Source of the DNA: Syntrophaceae bacterium UBA7544
GTDB lineage: Bacteria > Desulfobacterota > Syntrophia > Syntrophales > Smithellaceae
Reading direction: 5' to 3'
Assembly (NCBI GenBank): GCA_002479215.1
Contig: DLME01000065.1
Coordinates: 1 to 14,119 of the forward strand
DNA length: 14,119 nucleotides
This document shows, piece after piece, positions 8,021 to 13,866 of this stretch; the stretch's first letter is position 1; each line of letters opens with the position of its first letter. The translations under genes were made by a program, and so were the position numbers. Under the pieces are notes generated by a model, which did not search any database, was not told where the DNA came from, and was given only the letters and a program-made list of their open reading frames with translations.

Positions 8021-8749
8021 ATGTTAGCAATCAGAACAAAATCAATATATGCGTTTATTCTCTGTTTATTAATTGCCGGGTGCGCCACCGCGCCTATCGA
8101 TCCGGCAAAAGAATGGGAGAAAGCTAAAAATATTGATTCATTTGAAAGCTATGCCCACTTCCTTCAAGATAATGCGCCTAATAACTTCACACCGGAGGCA
8201 AAACTTAAGCTCAAAGCTATTATCCGGGAAATTGCTTTAAAGAGTGTGGACGATAATCGCGTTGCCCTAAAAAAAGGAACAGAGTTTAGCTTCAATTTGT
8301 TTTCCCCTGATGATGTCTTAAAATCATTTGTTCAGGAAAATCTGCCTGTAAGTTACAGTATTGTTTATAAATCCGGCCAGGACCCGGCTGTTAAACATTC
8401 CGAAGGTTTTCAGGAATTAAAAAATTACGATGAATTAAAACCTTTTCAGTCCCGCTTGATTCAGAGTCAAAAAGCCACTTCACAATCAAGAGTTGCCGTT
8501 ACGGCCTGGATGATTCCGCTGACCGTTTCCGGCATAAGCACCATCGGCCCGGATACCACGTTTATTTTTTATCGCGATCCCGACCAAGTCAATAATCGCG
8601 CTTTTGGAATTTCCATAAAAAGCGAATTAGTCAAAGGTATTGTAGAAAGAGAGCAGGCTAATATCGTAGGTGCAGGAATTGTTATTATAAAATCATCCGA
8701 ATTTGTCTGGGTATATGATTTTAGCCAGGATGGAAAATCGCTTTTTTAA
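8021..8749 (+). CDS. Predicted lipoprotein of unknown function
   Basis: A 242-residue exported protein. The leader MLAIRTKSIYAFILCLLIAGC has basic residues, a hydrophobic core and lipobox LIAGC with the lipidated Cys at residue 21; Ala22 after it favours outer-membrane sorting. Residues 28-75 (DPAKEWEKAKNIDSFESYAH and on) look helical, in the 'w..A...ds..aY..Fl..np' rhythm often found before tetratricopeptide-like or periplasmic repeat proteins. The rest is mixed beta and unrecognised. The ribosome site AAGGAGG (8009-8015) lies 5 bases before the ATG. It follows the glyoxalase-fold gene by 59 bases, so it may belong to the same unit. It is separate from the aromatic operon, which has its own promoter at 8837. 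Confidence 0.85.
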   Translation: MLAIRTKSIYAFILCLLIAGCATAPIDPAKEWEKAKNIDSFESYAHFLQDNAPNNFTPEAKLKLKAIIREIALKSVDDNRVALKKGTEFSFNLFSPDDVLKSFVQENLPVSYSIVYKSGQDPAVKHSEGFQELKNYDELKPFQSRLIQSQKATSQSRVAVTAWMIPLTVSGISTIGPDTTFIFYRDPDQVNNRAFGISIKSELVKGIVEREQANIVGAGIVIIKSSEFVWVYDFSQDGKSLF

Positions 8750-8836: not shown

Positions 8837-8865
8837 TTGACAAATATTTTTAGTTTGTTTATATG
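8837..8865 (+). promoter_or_regulatory. Promoter of the aromatic amino-acid operon
   Basis: A perfect -35 TTGACA (8837-8842), an exact 17-base spacer, then TATATG (8860-8865). Transcription should start near 8872, about 23 bases before the leader-peptide ATG and about 240 bases before aroF. The long transcribed leader and its contents point to control after initiation. No operator palindrome was seen over the promoter. Confidence 0.75.
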
Positions 8866-8894
8866 AGCTTCAAGTAAAGGACAGGTTTTTCACG

Positions 8895-8990
8895 ATGGAC
8901 AGAAAACTAAATGCAAACAGCAATATTTATGGTTACTGGTTTTATACCTATTTTGCATTGGTCTGCCTGTCGCTGAGGAGGTCTTGTTAA
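8895..8990 (+). CDS. Aromatic leader peptide of the aroF operon attenuator
   Basis: A 31-residue frame, too short for routine gene callers, running ATG (8895) to TAA (8990). Residues 12-20 read Y-G-Y-W-F-Y-T-Y-F: four Tyr, two Phe and one Trp in nine codons, at 8928-8954. Such a cluster of the pathway's end products, in front of a terminator and of the DAHP synthase gene, is the signature of ribosome-mediated attenuation known from trp, phe and his operons. AAAGGA (8876-8881) and AGG (8883-8885) are possible ribosome sites, 13 and 9 bases from the ATG. GACAGG there (8880-8885) can also pair with CCTGTC (8966-8971) inside the frame, which might limit leader translation. The mixed Tyr/Phe/Trp content suggests sensing of all three amino acids, fitting a common-pathway operon. 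Not experimentally known to me. Confidence 0.75.
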   Translation: MDRKLNANSNIYGYWFYTYFALVCLSLRRSC

Positions 8991-9010
8991 GGTAATATAA
9001 ACCAAAAACA

Positions 9011-9056
9011 GCCATGGGTGGATCAAAAACGAGCCGCCCATGGCTTTTCTGTTTTT
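9011..9056 (+). terminator. First attenuator hairpin (segments 1:2)
   Basis: GCCATGGGTGG (9011-9021) pairs with CCGCCCATGGC (9034-9044): 11 pairs including one G-U, with a 12-base loop, followed by TTTTCTGTTTTT. The A-rich 9004-9010 can additionally pair with TGTTTTT (9050-9056) past a 5-base bulge. The stem begins 20 bases after the leader-peptide stop. Either a terminator or the pause/protector hairpin of a classic attenuator. Confidence 0.75.
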
Positions 9057-9071
9057 AAAGGCCATGGCGGC
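9033..9071 (+). promoter_or_regulatory. Antiterminator-type pairing between the two hairpins (segments 2:3)
   Basis: The 3' arm of the first hairpin (9033-9044) is also complementary to the 5' arm of the second (9061-9071): 11 pairs with a single bulged C at 9037 and a 16-base loop. This stem excludes both terminator stems. The region therefore has the 1:2 / 2:3 / 3:4 alternatives of trp-type attenuators, built on four copies of a CATGG/CCATG core. Read from base complementarity; folding energies not computed. Confidence 0.6.
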
Positions 9072-9092
9072 AAAAACGTCATGGCTTTTTTT
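9061..9092 (+). terminator. Second attenuator hairpin, intrinsic terminator (segments 3:4)
   Basis: GCCATGGCG (9061-9069) pairs with CGTCATGGC (9077-9085): 9 pairs including one G-U, loop GCAAAAA, directly followed by seven T (9086-9092). It ends only 6 bases before the aroF ribosome site (AGGAGGG, 9099-9105), so it must be bypassed for operon expression. This is the most canonical terminator in the window. Confidence 0.85.
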
Positions 9093-9113
9093 AGTTTTAG
9101 GAGGGAAGAAATC

Positions 9114-10124
9114 ATGATTGTGGTAATGAAAAGTCAAGCTACAGAAAAGCAAATAGAGGATGTAATCCGCTGGATTGAATCGGTCGGATACAAAGCGCAT
9201 CCTTCGCACGGGGTCGAACGAACAATTATCGGAGCTGTAGGGGATAACCGCGACAAGGCAATCCTCAAATACGCGGAATCTTTACCGGGGGTGGAAAAAA
9301 CTATGCCTATTTTAAAACCATACAAGCTGGCGAGCCGTGAATCGCACGAAGGCAATACCGTGGTTTCCGTAGGCAAAATTCAAATCGGCGGCCCGGAATT
9401 CGTAGTGATGGCCGGACCCTGCTCGATTGAAAGCGAAGAGCAATTACTGGAAAGCGCCTATATAGCCAAAAAAGGAGGCGCGCAAATTCTTCGGGGAGGC
9501 GCCTACAAGCCGCGCACTTCGCCTTACAGTTTCCAGGGGATGGAAGAAGAGGGCTTGAAAATTTTAGATCAGGTTCGTGTGCGGGCAAGCATGCCGGTAG
9601 TTACGGAAGTGGTTAATCCCGCCGATGTCGATCTTGTTGAATCATACGCCGACATGCTCCAGATAGGCGCGCGCAATATTCAGAACTTTGCCCTGCTTAA
9701 AGAAGTCGGCCGTTCGCAAAAACCGGTGCTTTTAAAAAGAGGCATGATGACCACTATCGAAGAGCTGCTCATGTCGGCGGAATACATCCTTTCGGCGGGT
9801 AACTCTCAGGTTATCCTTTGCGAACGCGGCATCAGAACCTTCGAAACGGCTACAAGAAACACTTTGGATATAAGCGCCGTTCCGGTACTGAAAGGGTTAA
9901 CGCATCTGCCGGTCATTGTTGACCCCAGCCATGCCGCCGGTCATTGGAAATATGTAATCCCCCTTTCCCGTGCCGCAATGGCCGTAGGGGCCGATGGCCT
10001 TATTGTCGAGGTGCATCCGGAACCGGAAAAGGCTGTCTCCGATGGAGCGCAATCCCTGAAACCGGAAAAGTTCTATCAATTGATGGATGAATTAAGGGCA
10101 ATTAACGCGGCGATGAGACACTAA
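9114..10124 (+). CDS. aroF: 3-deoxy-7-phosphoheptulonate (DAHP) synthase, type I-beta with N-terminal regulatory domain
   Basis: Condenses PEP and erythrose-4-phosphate, the first step of the shikimate pathway. The 336 residues comprise an N-terminal ferredoxin-like domain (1-70, [18 protein letters not shown]...), which in relatives such as the Thermotoga enzyme binds Tyr or Phe for feedback inhibition, and a TIM-barrel catalytic domain. Signatures: GPCSIES with metal ligand Cys103, [11 protein letters not shown] (127-137), [10 protein letters not shown] (183-192), KRGM (208-211), DPSHAAG with His273, then Glu299 and Asp310. The ATG at 9114 has AGGAGGG 8 bases upstream. The frame stays open 32 codons further, but that would run through the terminator stem and is rejected. 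First structural gene behind the attenuator; aroB starts 15 bases after its stop. Product made in the cytoplasm; control therefore likely works at both the transcript and enzyme level. Confidence 0.95.
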
Positions 10125-10139
10125 AAACGGAGTAAGTAT

Positions 10140-11234
10140 ATGCGATCAATGAAAGTCAATCTCGATAAGAAGTCTTTGTCTTCCTACGAAATACGCATAG
10201 GTAAAGGCATTGCCGACCGGATGGCTCTGCTTATTGCCAAAAACCACAAAGCGGGACTCTATGTGTTGATAACGGACGATTGTGTCGGTAAAATCTACGG
10301 ACAAAAGCTTTTAATCAGCTTAAAAGATGTAGGACTGAATGTGGATTCCATCGAATTTCCCGCGGGCGAGACTTCCAAAAACATTAACACTGTCCTGGAT
10401 ATTGTGGAAAAGTTGTTAAAACGGGGAGCCGACAGGGAGACTCTTTTAATTGCTTTAGGCGGCGGAGTTGTGGGCGACATGGTCGGCTTTATCGCTTCCG
10501 TTTTCATGCGCTCCATTCCTTATATTCAAATTCCGACAACACTCGTGGCACAGGTGGACAGCAGTATCGGCGGAAAAACCGCTATCGATCTGCCTTACGG
10601 TAAAAATCTACTGGGGACGTTTTACCAACCCAGCGCAGTATTTGCGGATTTGAGTTTTCTGGATACACTGCCGGAAAAAGAATTCAACAACGGACTGGCG
10701 GAAATTATCAAATACGGTGTCATCGAAGATGAAAAAATGTTTCATGCTCTGGAAGATAATATGGAAGCGGTAAAACAAAAAGACGCGTCGCTTTTGTTAA
10801 AGCTTGTGGAAAATTGTTGCCGCATCAAAAAATCAATTGTCGAGATAGACGAAAAGGAGCAAGGCCTGCGCCGCATTCTTAATTTCGGCCACACCATTGG
10901 GCATGCGTTGGAAGCCCTTTCCCAATATAAAGTAACGCATGGAGAAGGAGTGGCTCTGGGGATGATCGCGGCGGCGCGCATTTCCGAAAAAATGGGCTAT
11001 CTGGAAAGCGGGGAAACCATGCGTATCGAAGGGCTTATAAACAGCGCGGGCCTGCCCGTAAACATTCCTAAGCCCTTTTCTCCGGAAAGTATAATTTCTC
11101 AGTTGCGTATGGACAAGAAAAAAAAGGGCGACATCATTCATTTTGTTTTGTTAAAGAAAATAGGAATGCCGTTTGTCAACGGAGGTATAGAAGCCAGTTT
11201 GATAAGAGAAGTAATTGAGGAGATGAAAAAATGA
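10140..11234 (+). CDS. aroB: 3-dehydroquinate synthase
   Basis: Converts DAHP to 3-dehydroquinate, using NAD catalytically and a divalent metal. 364 residues, the usual length. Seen in order: PAGETSK (74-80), NAD loop GGGVVGD (107-113), the long signature IPTTLVAQVDSSIGGKTAID (131-150), metal ligand Glu188 in LAEIIKYG, His251 in NFGHTIGHA, and His267 in THGEGVALG. All key residues are present. CGGAG (10128-10132) precedes the ATG by 7 bases. A second in-frame ATG at codon 4 is possible but has a worse spacing. The stop overlaps the pheA start in ATGA (11231-11234), so translation of the two is coupled. Confidence 0.96.
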   Translation: MRSMKVNLDKKSLSSYEIRIGKGIADRMALLIAKNHKAGLYVLITDDCVGKIYGQKLLISLKDVGLNVDSIEFPAGETSKNINTVLDIVEKLLKRGADRETLLIALGGGVVGDMVGFIASVFMRSIPYIQIPTTLVAQVDSSIGGKTAIDLPYGKNLLGTFYQPSAVFADLSFLDTLPEKEFNNGLAEIIKYGVIEDEKMFHALEDNMEAVKQKDASLLLKLVENCCRIKKSIVEIDEKEQGLRRILNFGHTIGHALEALSQYKVTHGEGVALGMIAAARISEKMGYLESGETMRIEGLINSAGLPVNIPKPFSPESIISQLRMDKKKKGDIIHFVLLKKIGMPFVNGGIEASLIREVIEEMKK

Positions 11235-12313
11235 AGCCGGGGCGCTTGGAAAATTTACGAAAAACCATAAAAGAAAAAGACCGGGATATTATCCGTTTGT
11301 TGAATGAACGGGCGCAAATATCCGTTCAGATAGGCAAGGTTAAAGGCGAAGGCGGAATCGAAGTATATGATCCTGCTCAGGAAGCAAAAGTTTACGGTTA
11401 TCTGCAGGAGCTTAATCCCGGCCCTCTGCCCCGGGATGCCGTAATGTCCATTTTCAGGGAAATTATTTCCGCCTCGCGCAGTTTGCAAAAACCAACGGCC
11501 ATTGCTTTTTTTGGTGCGGAAGCATCTTTTACGCATTTAGCAGCGCGTCTGCATTTTGGTGATTCCAGCCGTTATTTTCCTCAGCCGAGGATTGATCGTG
11601 TATTTGATGAAGTAGAAAAGGGTTCCATAGATTGGGGCGTTGTTCCCGTAGAAAATTCCCTGGAAGGATCGGTGAACATTACTCTCGACCGGCTGATTAC
11701 GACCGCACTGAATATCAGGGCAGAGGTTTTTCTGCGAATCAGCCAGTGCCTGATTTCTTCGGCTAAAAGCATGACGGATATTAAGAAAATTTATTCTCAT
11801 CCGCACGCCTTACCCCAGTGCCAGGTATGGCTCAGAACCAATCTGCCCAATTGCACGCTGGGCGAAGCGGAAAGCACAGCCGCAGCGGCCCGAATGGTGC
11901 GGGGGAAAAAGAACGAAGCAGCGATAGGCAGCGCCCTTGCCGCTCAGATCTACGGCTTGAACTTGCTGGCCGAAGGCATCGAAGATAGCTCCTCCAATAT
12001 GACGCGCTTTTTGGTTATGGGCAGAGGAGAAAGCAATTCTACCGGCGACGATAAAACTTCTTTGATTTTCGCGACACCCCATTCGCCCGGTTCGCTTCAT
12101 CGCGCACTATCTTCCTTCGCCCGCCGCCGGATTAATTTGACCAAAATAGAATCACATCCGGTAAAAGAGAGATTGTGGGAATATCTTTTCTTTGTAGATA
12201 TGCTCGGCCATATAAAAGACAAACCGATAAAAAGTTGTTTACAGGAGTTGAAAGAAAAAACAACTTTTCTAAAGATATTGGGTTCATACCCGAAAGCAGA
12301 AGGCAGAATATGA
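11231..12313 (+). CDS. pheA: Bifunctional chorismate mutase / prephenate dehydratase (P-protein)
   Basis: Turns chorismate into prephenate and then phenylpyruvate, committing flux to phenylalanine. 360 residues in three domains: AroQ-type chorismate mutase (1-88, with Arg10, Arg27 and Lys36 in the expected helix positions); prephenate dehydratase (89-265: AFFGAEASFTH, VVPVENSLEGSV, ESTAAAARM, and the catalytic T-R-F motif with Thr258); and a C-terminal ACT domain (275-355) for phenylalanine feedback. In the ACT domain the usual Phe-site motifs are altered: GSL (287-289) stands for GAL, and ESHP (307-310) for ESRP. Start ATG overlaps the aroB stop by 4 bases, and its own stop overlaps the aroDE start by 4 bases (12310-12313). 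No separate ribosome site is needed if coupling holds, though GAGG (11218-11221) is near. Confidence 0.95.
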   Translation: MKPGRLENLRKTIKEKDRDIIRLLNERAQISVQIGKVKGEGGIEVYDPAQEAKVYGYLQELNPGPLPRDAVMSIFREIISASRSLQKPTAIAFFGAEASFTHLAARLHFGDSSRYFPQPRIDRVFDEVEKGSIDWGVVPVENSLEGSVNITLDRLITTALNIRAEVFLRISQCLISSAKSMTDIKKIYSHPHALPQCQVWLRTNLPNCTLGEAESTAAAARMVRGKKNEAAIGSALAAQIYGLNLLAEGIEDSSSNMTRFLVMGRGESNSTGDDKTSLIFATPHSPGSLHRALSSFARRRINLTKIESHPVKERLWEYLFFVDMLGHIKDKPIKSCLQELKEKTTFLKILGSYPKAEGRI

Positions 12314-13866
12314 TCTGTATCACCATTACGGCCCGCACGAACAAAGAAGCGCTCAAAGACATTGAACGAAGCTGTCTCATTGCCGATTTCATCGAGCTGA
12401 GAATGGATTTAATCAAAGGCGGAGTTTTACCGGAATTGATTTCCGCTGCCCGCAGCGGTTCGGCTTCGGTTAAAATTATCGTTACCTGCAGAAAAAGGGA
12501 GGAGGCCGCCCCTGCCGGAAAAGCAGTGGTTATCAAAAATACGAAAAACCAAAAGATAGCTTTGCTTAAAGAAGCAATCAAACTGGGCGCGGATTTTATC
12601 GATATCGAGCTTGCGGAAGGAAATGTAGCGATTCGTGAGCTCAAAACTTTTTGCACTAAACAGGGAGGTTTTACCAAAATCATTATTTCCTACCATGATG
12701 TTAAGAAGACTCCCTCGCTTACAAAGCTGAAAGAAGTATTCAATAAATGTGCAAAGGCTAAACCGGCAATTGTAAAAATCGTCACCTTAGCCAAAGCACC
12801 TGAAGATAATTTGAGGGTTCTCAGTTTGATCCCTTATGCGCGAAAACATTCTCAGGAAATCATTGCCCTTTGTATGGGAGCTCCCGGCCGCCTCAGCCGC
12901 GCCGTAGCACCTATCATGGGCAATTATTTGAGCTTTGCCGCGCTGGATAAGAAGAGTCAATCCGCGCCGGGGCAGTTCACAGTTGGGGACATGAAACAAA
13001 TATTAAAATTGCTAAAAGGCGAAAATGCTGCGCCGCCGTTAACGATTTCCCCCACGGACACACTGCAGAATTATATTCTATTGGGCAATCCGGTGCAGCA
13101 AAGTCTTTCTCCCTTAATGCACAACGCGGCTTTGAAGGAAATGAAGATGGCGGGAAACTACACCGCGTTTTGCGTCCGAAATCTGGGCGGCGCGCTACGA
13201 GGCATGAGGGACATGAATATCCGGGGCGCCAGCATAACCATACCCTATAAGACCGAAGCTATGGAATATCTGGATGATGTTGATGAACACTCGCTGAAAA
13301 TAGGAGCCGTAAATACAATCATCAACGAAAACGGCCGCCTGAAAGGCTGCAATACCGATTGGCTGGGGTTGATTCTTACGCTTAAAGAAGCAATGACAAT
13401 AAAAGATAAAACTTTCGTAATCATCGGCGCAGGCGGAACGGCGCGGGCGGTGGCTTATGGAATCCTAAAGGAAGGCGGATTCCCGATTATCACAAACAGA
13501 ACTCCGGAAAAAGGAAAGATTCTATCGGGGAAATTCGACTGCCCGTTTTATCCGCTTTCCGAAATAGGCAAGATCAACGCCGACTGCCTCATTAACACGA
13601 CGCCTGTGGGCATGTATCCCCACAAGAATAAATCGCCGGTTGAATCTTCCGTGCTGACCGGATATAAATATGTTATGGATGTAATATACAATCCGCTGAA
13701 GACAAAATTACTGACGGATGCCGAAAAACAGGGCTGCCATATTTTTTCCGGGTTGGATATGTTTGTGCATCAAGGAGCGGAGCAGCTTCAGCTGTGGACA
13801 GGAAAAGAACCACCCCTGATGCTGATGAAAAAAGTGGTATGGGAAAGGCTGACCAAAATTGAATAA
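12310..13866 (+). CDS. aroDE: Fused 3-dehydroquinate dehydratase (type I) / shikimate dehydrogenase
   Basis: One 518-residue chain performs two consecutive steps: 3-dehydroquinate to 3-dehydroshikimate, then to shikimate with NADPH. Residues 1-235 are type I AroD: ELRMD (29-33), ISYHD with catalytic His129, IVKIVT with Schiff-base Lys156, and MGAPGRLSR (189-197) plus SAPGQ (218-222) for substrate binding. Residues 250-518 are AroE: LGNPVQQSLSPLMHN (258-272), catalytic Lys314 in TIPYK, Asp350 in NTDWLG, NADP loop GAGGTARA (373-380), NTTPVGM (429-435). Both active sites look intact. A short low-complexity linker joins them. The ATG overlaps the pheA stop; AGAAGG (12298-12303) lies 6 bases upstream. 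The open frame runs 45 codons further up, inside pheA, and is ignored. Similar fusions are known from plants, Chlamydia and some other bacteria. Confidence 0.95.
   Translation: MICITITARTNKEALKDIERSCLIADFIELRMDLIKGGVLPELISAARSGSASVKIIVTCRKREEAAPAGKAVVIKNTKNQKIALLKEAIKLGADFIDIELAEGNVAIRELKTFCTKQGGFTKIIISYHDVKKTPSLTKLKEVFNKCAKAKPAIVKIVTLAKAPEDNLRVLSLIPYARKHSQEIIALCMGAPGRLSRAVAPIMGNYLSFAALDKKSQSAPGQFTVGDMKQILKLLKGENAAPPLTISPTDTLQNYILLGNPVQQSLSPLMHNAALKEMKMAGNYTAFCVRNLGGALRGMRDMNIRGASITIPYKTEAMEYLDDVDEHSLKIGAVNTIINENGRLKGCNTDWLGLILTLKEAMTIKDKTFVIIGAGGTARAVAYGILKEGGFPIITNRTPEKGKILSGKFDCPFYPLSEIGKINADCLINTTPVGMYPHKNKSPVESSVLTGYKYVMDVIYNPLKTKLLTDAEKQGCHIFSGLDMFVHQGAEQLQLWTGKEPPLMLMKKVVWERLTKIE

Follow-up and report, generated by a model that had tools for sequence, protein, structure and literature searches.

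How could a single leader adjust the common part of aromatic amino acid biosynthesis to three different end products? Textbook leaders respond to a single amino acid, and one that tunes a shared pathway to three is not among them. The question is raised by the window (the whole stretch of 14,119 nucleotides analysed here, which is contig C55 of a genome in 305 contigs), whose closest named relatives, among the best 80 of 358 aroF relatives, are Smithella and other Syntrophaceae. On its plus strand we found a 31-codon leader peptide ORF with the product MDRKLNANSNIYGYWFYTYFALVCLSLRRSC according to the ORF translation. Within it, seven of nine consecutive codons (YGYWFYTYF) are aromatic, four for Tyr, two for Phe and one for Trp; translation and the profile matches of aroF bear out the preliminary description, which had placed such a frame upstream of a DAHP synthase gene. 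We consider this leader peptide to be real; it lies between a promoter and two terminator hairpins 5' of aroF. As in classical attenuators, codons for the end products precede the genes making them, and a predicted intrinsic terminator separates leader and aroF. The features are collected in Table 1.

Table 1. Features of the aromatic leader and the operon behind it (positions in the window).
Feature	Position	Strand	Basis
Promoter: TTGACA (8837-8842), 17-nt spacer, TATATG (8860-8865)	8837..8865	+	sequence
Leader peptide ORF	8895..8990	+	sequence; kept in relatives
Segment A (GG-A-CAGA at the leader start codon), putative partner of B	8897..8903	+	pairing, permutation
Candidate sensor codon run Y-G-Y-W-F-Y-T-Y-F (codons 12-20)	8928..8954	+	translation; comparison of 74 runs
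Segment B, with core GGTCTGCCT at 8960-8968 and an extension reaching 8974, within the VCLSL codons	8960..8974	+	comparison, position
Segment C (AGCCATGGGTGGATC): hairpin 1, left arm with part of the loop; complementary to B	9010..9024	+	comparison
Segment D: right arm of hairpin 1 (putative terminator 1), followed by TTTCTGTTTTT (9046-9056)	9033..9045	+	terminator scan, C:D pairing
Segment E (AAAGGCCATGGCGGC): hairpin 2, left arm; complementary to D as well	9057..9071	+	D:E pairing, extension test
Segment F: right arm of hairpin 2 (putative terminator 2) and T run (9086-9092)	9078..9092	+	terminator scan, E:F pairing
aroF, DAHP synthase of the B. subtilis (I-beta) type	9114..10124	+	NF006421 and TIGR01361 above cut-off
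aroB, 3-dehydroquinate synthase	10140..11234	+	TIGR01357 above cut-off
pheA, chorismate mutase-prephenate dehydratase	11231..12313	+	NF008865 above cut-off; chorismate mutase models below theirs
aroDE, fused 3-dehydroquinate dehydratase/shikimate dehydrogenase	12310..13866	+	TIGR01093 and TIGR00507 above cut-off; start by eye
Partial aroA (EPSP synthase): N-terminal portion, truncated at the contig end	13859..14119	+	open frame

The operon behind the leader had been called complete, which does not hold: aroF, aroB, pheA and aroDE are whole, but the last frame, which we take to be aroA from its PGSKSLTQRA stretch, is partial, and the window revealed no aroC, aroK, tyrA or trp gene. The order aroB-pheA-aroDE after aroF recurs in 64 of the 65 loci with at least 4.2 kb beyond the aroF start.

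The promoter pair ends 29 nt 5' of the leader ATG. Under looser rules a similar pair was found upstream of 64 of 74 leaders, a count that comes without a chance rate for comparison. The near-consensus promoter reported earlier is present in the sequence, though a stricter fixed-rule scan, which requires the -10 element to end in T, returned no promoter. The tandem terminators were likewise recovered: a terminator scan gave terminator-like hairpins at 9031-9046 and 9057-9089, 5' of aroF, and a third one on the minus strand at 9195-9209, against an average of 0.9 hairpins in shuffled sequences.

To count as a leader in a relative, an ORF had to contain at least five aromatic codons in nine and to lie no more than 450 nt from aroF. 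Such a leader is present at aroF in 73 of 80 loci, these being the best 80 of 358 aroF relatives; with the window they make up the 74 leaders referred to below. The remaining seven loci comprise two with the leader one gene further upstream, four that are cut, gapped or altered, and one without leader. In the first two (L047 and L063) the leader is distant from aroF because a gene for an aldolase-like protein, assigned by eye and located at about 1754-2719 in L047, intervenes. Contig ends cut the leader region of L031 and L064, the remaining parts being present, and in L039 the leader is followed by a gap of N. L032 retains the run and segments B to F, its usual start is lost and the start region reads as the end of the upstream gene. 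L089 is without leader and run and keeps one hairpin (25 bits with the covariance model R1, see below). Defects of the kind named beforehand as a sign against attenuation thus occur once each, as loss of the run in L089 and of the usual start in L032, whereas 73 loci are intact. L066 has its start codon at a more upstream position, yet segment A keeps its distance to B and pairs over 7 bp.

The run itself is not a chance product, because 61 of the 65 ORFs that reach seven aromatic codons in nine (from 10,620 short ORFs of 15-60 amino acids in six frames of the 80 loci and the window) lie just 5' of aroF. Two others are the leaders of L047 and L063, displaced upstream by one gene, one is antisense to the leader region (L077) and one is unrelated. 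Tyr occurs in all 74 runs, Phe in 73, Trp in 71, and the mixture of all three pointed out in the preliminary description in 70. An alignment of relatives, suggested there as a check, gave the expected picture of a conserved run with third-base changes: codon totals over the 74 runs are TAT 226, TAC 62, TTT 162, TTC 31 and TGG 80. The aromatic class is kept while codons drift, with Tyr/Phe exchanges and in-frame length changes, and the order of the aromatic residues is not conserved. Among 33 representatives (a greedy pick at a string-similarity ratio below 0.80), 30 contain Trp, though its position shifts.

These comparisons bear on an alternative, namely that the hairpins simply terminate the upstream gene as an ordinary tandem terminator, the leader frame being an AT-rich accident. 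Taken alone, the hairpins do resemble plain terminators, and an ORF ends at 8749, directly upstream of the promoter and leader region. We nevertheless regard this explanation as hardly credible and reject it: a promoter-like pair and a leader conserved in frame lie between the upstream gene and the hairpins, and segments A and B, the D:E pairing and the run would have no role in a plain terminator. Moreover, the hairpins precede aroF in the relatives, or else a gene inserted ahead of it (L047 and L063).

The RNA from 8875 to 9100 folds at -74.6 kcal/mol (z = -5.55 against shuffled sequences). For the helices we used two alignments, A1 with 31 of the 74 leaders, all close relatives, and A2 with 55 of the 74, hand-chosen to thin near-duplicates and leaving out L094 with its aberrant second hairpin. 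Across the 55 sequences, 99.2% of the C:D cells and 97.4% of the E:F cells are paired; jointly the two helices reach 98.3%, with eight pairs changed on both sides, which is above all 500 shuffles. At fixed distances, a T run of at least four follows C:D in 73 and E:F in 67 of the 74 leaders. The interpretation of C:D and E:F as intrinsic-terminator-like hairpins is therefore strongly supported by sequence comparison.

Other types of RNA control were considered as well. No Rfam leader, T-box or riboswitch matched anywhere in the window at the gathering score, the best weak match being a streptococcal sRNA with 26.5 bits against 50, and a T-box or riboswitch was excluded on this ground. Sequestration of the Shine-Dalgarno sequence of aroF was excluded too, as the AGGAGG at 9099-9104 lies 3' of hairpin 2.

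Beyond the two hairpins, the leader RNA is predicted to be capable of forming a six-segment switch with the alternatives A:B or B:C and C:D or D:E, and with the helix E:F. The 9-bp core of B:C is paired in 630 of 666 cells over the 74 leaders, compared with 159 to 358 when the partners are slid by one to four bases, and 47 leaders have all nine pairs. Its own score was reached by 27 of 5000 permutations (mean 625.6), and in 71 of 74 leaders the following stretch contains no better 9-mer complement of B. In L078 both partners of two neighbouring pairs are changed and all nine pairs are kept. Extended to 15 nt, the helix is paired in 977 of 1110 cells, a value reached by one of 5000 permutations; one position is mismatched in 73 of 74 leaders, and taken by themselves the six additional positions give a weaker result (118 of 5000). 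Covariation is less pronounced: alignment A2 gave 94.7% paired cells and a small excess (0.214 against 0.199 shuffled, reached by 2 of 500), and the 31 close sequences gave neither an excess over shuffled partners nor a pair changed on both sides. With strong complementarity and modest covariation, B:C is a good candidate for an antiterminator that adjoins the codon run and would be mutually exclusive with the terminator, in keeping with the proposal that the leader is an attenuator.

For D:E (95.7% of cells paired) and A:B (92.5%), the 31 close sequences likewise yielded no excess over shuffles and no pair changed on both sides. A CCATGG palindrome confounds D:E, which was therefore tested only outside it. 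There the own pairings of the 33 representatives averaged -4.57 against -3.40 for permuted ones, a value reached by none of 5000 permutations, and in the 70 of 74 leaders in which the extension could be located (all except L034, L073, L091 and L094) the own mean was reached by one of 5000. By eye, L072 (CGCTA/TAGCG) and L109 (TGCTA/TAGCA) pair D with E through bases that are not used in E:F. Own A:B duplexes exceeded permuted ones in the 33 representatives (-15.24 against -13.34) and in all 74 leaders (-14.71 against -12.97), each with 0 of 5000. It should be noted that the permutation tests on helices do not remove the relatedness among leaders. The alternative helices thus have comparative support, that for D:E and A:B coming mainly from permutation tests, and the predicted set (A:B, C:D and E:F versus B:C and D:E) corresponds to a his-type six-segment scheme.

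Segment B also encodes the C-terminus of the peptide, VC(P/L)(S/L)L, whose residues are conserved across many leaders. Such conservation might point to a peptide that itself arrests the ribosome and senses a free aromatic compound in the manner of TnaC. We consider this very improbable and rejected it as an arrest peptide, since the conservation follows the RNA. GTCTGCC after the run is nearly fixed as nucleotides, the reverse of the drifting codons of the run, and the codon behind VC(P/L) ends in G in all 74 leaders while its first two bases vary, the amino acid being S, L, A, T, V or others. An invariant third base beside variable first and second bases argues that the C-terminus is held by the RNA rather than by the peptide. 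The change in L078 is compensatory with C, other leaders likewise have VCP- or VCL-like C-termini behind their Trp, Phe or mixed runs, and the order of residues in the run varies.

We therefore return to attenuation. With considerable confidence, we propose that in these sediment bacteria the leader controls the common aromatic operon by ribosome-mediated transcription attenuation, working as a six-segment relay. If Tyr-, Phe- or Trp-tRNA is short, the leading ribosome would halt in the run, with A behind it and B free ahead, and B would form the antiterminator with C. This would free D to pair with E, so that neither terminator forms and aroF and the later genes are transcribed. With plentiful charged tRNA, the ribosome would reach the stop codon, B would emerge behind it and pair with A, and formation of A:B would lead to C:D and E:F and to the end of transcription. 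Without translation, A:B would form as well, with the same outcome. In this way the leader would sense tRNA charging and all three end products. As the run mixes Tyr, Phe and Trp codons, any single shortage would relieve termination, and the leader would act as an OR gate for the three end products to which the shared pathway leads.

The geometry is compatible with this course of events. The last aromatic codon precedes the V codon by 9 or 12 nt in 68 of 74 leaders, and the stop codon follows the V codon after 21-30 nt in 73. Of the 37 Trp codons in the representatives, 33 sit 6-11 codons before the V codon. With ribosome footprints of the usual length, a halt at most run codons leaves B free, a ribosome at the last run codon covers part of B, and one at the stop codon leaves the B core just behind it, able to pair with A. 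As most of the B core would lie open beside a terminating ribosome, the end of transcription would then rest on the presumed re-forming of A:B. In minimum-energy folds of the growing RNA with a ribosome placed in the run, B:C forms up to 9036 and C:D at 9046-9056; at 9075 B:C is present together with D:E, and the folds at 9092 and 9100 contain both terminators. C:D (-25.3) beats B:C (-22.6) under these conditions, and the antiterminated fold at 9100 falls short of the free minimum with both terminators by 5 kcal/mol (-48.5 against -53.4). Up to 9100, minimum-energy folds with the ribosome in the run hence give no support for a thermodynamic switch; the terminated fold being more stable, antitermination would have to win kinetically, and a kinetic switch appears plausible from these models.

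The same RNA chassis stands before other genes. We built a covariance model, R1, from segments B to F of alignment A2, which makes it blind to the codon run. At E <= 0.01, R1 matched at least once in 153 of the 155 Syntrophales genomes and in 214 of 395 taken from across the phylum, among them Syntrophales; leaders that belong to genes other than aroF are part of both counts. The window's own genome has eight matches at this threshold. With genes assigned by eye, they include leaders before ilvB (..VLVVVL..), trpE (WWWW), trpB (WWW) and leuA (LLL), i.e. for Val, Trp and Leu (L112, L113, L114 and L118), as well as one before a binding protein (FIYFFGF) and one before dapA without a clear run; a further match (L117) looks spurious. 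The genome also has a second DAHP synthase (L198, G000:C101) with an N-terminal extension that by eye resembles chorismate mutase, and the stretch taken from C101 contains no R1 match.

Twenty loci from the phylum search included mixed leaders before an ADH-synthase-like gene (L136 and L137), ADH synthase being an alternative first enzyme of the aromatic pathway. A further 60 matches were a non-random choice, 40 better-scoring ones phylum-wide and 20 from Syntrophales, mostly the second matches of their genomes, and leader picking in them favours runs because the most run-rich ORF was chosen. By downstream motif, they divide into DAHP synthase I-beta (5) and I-alpha (5), ADH synthase (16), trpE (2), trpB (1), a binding protein behind a Phe run (13) or a Tyr run (2), a PF13557 protein behind a Trp run (6) and others (10); family identity was checked by HMM for eight proteins and by Pfam for four, the others being assigned by motif. 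Counting the last 30 residues, Phe and Tyr are both present in all 26 leaders of the DAHP and ADH synthase classes, and Trp in 5 of 5 (I-beta), 5 of 5 (I-alpha) and 7 of 16 (ADH synthase). The 13 Phe-run leaders on the chassis are all without Trp.

Mixed aromatic leaders before ADH synthase, whose identity was HMM-checked for L142 and L144, were seen in L136, L137, L142-L144, L146-L148, L151, L153, L154, L157, L159, L160, L162-L164 and L171. Phe-rich leaders of the FFSFFSFF type precede a LivK-like binding protein (L115 on C14 of the window's genome, L174, L183, L185-L192 and L194-L196), identified as Peripla_BP_6 in the one case tested, which suggests a phenylalanine importer. Similarly, Tyr-rich leaders of the YYYYGYLRRSA type before another binding protein (L166 and L177; Peripla_BP_6 in L166) suggest a tyrosine importer. 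Trp-rich leaders precede a PF13557 (Phenol_MetA_deg) protein in L173, L178, L180, L181, L184 and L193, the family being tested in L173. Leader codons may in this way suggest substrates for unassigned transport genes, Phe and Tyr for the binding-protein families and Trp for the PF13557 protein.

Does the single Trp codon at aroF then matter? The leader might be an attenuator in which only Tyr and/or Phe count, with Trp as a passenger of an aromatic-rich run. Trp is missing from 3 of the 74 runs and from 9 of the 16 ADH-synthase leaders, trpE and trpB of the same genome (genes by eye) already have Trp-rich leaders of their own, and the aroR leader of C. glutamicum with its Phe-Tyr-Phe run is said to respond to Phe, not Tyr (PMC11802643). 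Against this, Trp is retained in nearly all runs and representatives despite its shifting position, and it occurs in every leader of either DAHP synthase type and in none of the Phe-run leaders. Moreover, the prevailing distance of the Trp codons from the V codon is one at which a stalled ribosome would leave B free, going by the usual footprint lengths. On balance we regard a passenger Trp as possible but rather unlikely, and prefer the three-way OR gate.

For the Desulfobacterota as a whole, we lean towards a reusable six-segment chassis that would carry Trp, Phe, Tyr, Leu or Val codons before dedicated genes and the Tyr/Phe/Trp OR gate before the enzyme that opens the pathway, be it one of two DAHP synthase types or ADH synthase. 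Such a series of codon swaps on one RNA chassis would allow codon choice, position and ribosome distance to be related to the gene controlled.

Among known systems, the relay of six segments A to F is the full scheme of the his attenuator, and the leader peptides of pheL, pheST and trpL are dominated by one amino acid. Searches of an open-access library brought up no paper on a mixed Tyr/Phe/Trp leader in Desulfobacterota. In the E. coli his attenuator, leader codons choose between terminator (E+F) and antiterminator (PMC10065794); according to this description, it shares with the Syntrophaceae leader that codons set the choice between the two structures of one RNA. It senses a single amino acid, His. 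In the Syntrophaceae leader C:D is also followed by a T run, giving two candidate terminators. E. coli pheL, pheST and trpL have regulatory codons in leader peptides upstream of aromatic genes, as summarised in PMC11802643; they sit at a terminal branch or a tRNA synthetase, the Syntrophaceae leader at the common pathway.

The preliminary description knew of no attenuator of this composition, and this is nearly right: the closest case is aroR, the leader of C. glutamicum aroF, for which ribosome-mediated attenuation has been reported (Neshat et al. 2014, via PMC4046766, PMC11802643 and PMC7356990). As described there, it is likewise a short leader ORF with aromatic codons before a DAHP synthase gene, but its run is shorter, with three codons and without Trp, and it belongs to another phylum; the comparison is one of descriptions, and those cited do not mention a six-segment chassis. 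While the response to Phe given above comes from PMC11802643, control by both Phe and Tyr is stated in PMC7356990. A survey of actinobacteria lists Trp leaders and, in the account cited, none for Phe or Tyr (PMC1262725).

Attenuation by tRNA charging has also been proposed for other DAHP synthase genes. For E. coli aroF-tyrA, control through Tyr-tRNA was hypothesised (Camakaris et al. 1980, via PMC2659441), and an RNA was predicted before Shewanella aroF (PMC2659441); the proposal as given there concerns Tyr only, and its description includes no comparable leader peptide. The uORFC-13-1 motif combines a predicted uORF and a terminator 5' of aroF as well, and is recorded for Acholeplasma and environmental sequences only (PMC8632094). 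It differs in that at least one Phe codon is specified, and a six-segment form is not part of the published description. Finally, a putative attenuator was noted before the aroA'-aroB'-pheA-aroF-tyrA-trp supraoperon of Desulfovibrio vulgaris (PMC1173090). It resembles the leaders presented here in being a predicted attenuator before an aromatic operon that opens with alternative enzymes, and differs in that the account cited gives no leader peptide or codon run; the leaders before ADH synthase may be its kin.
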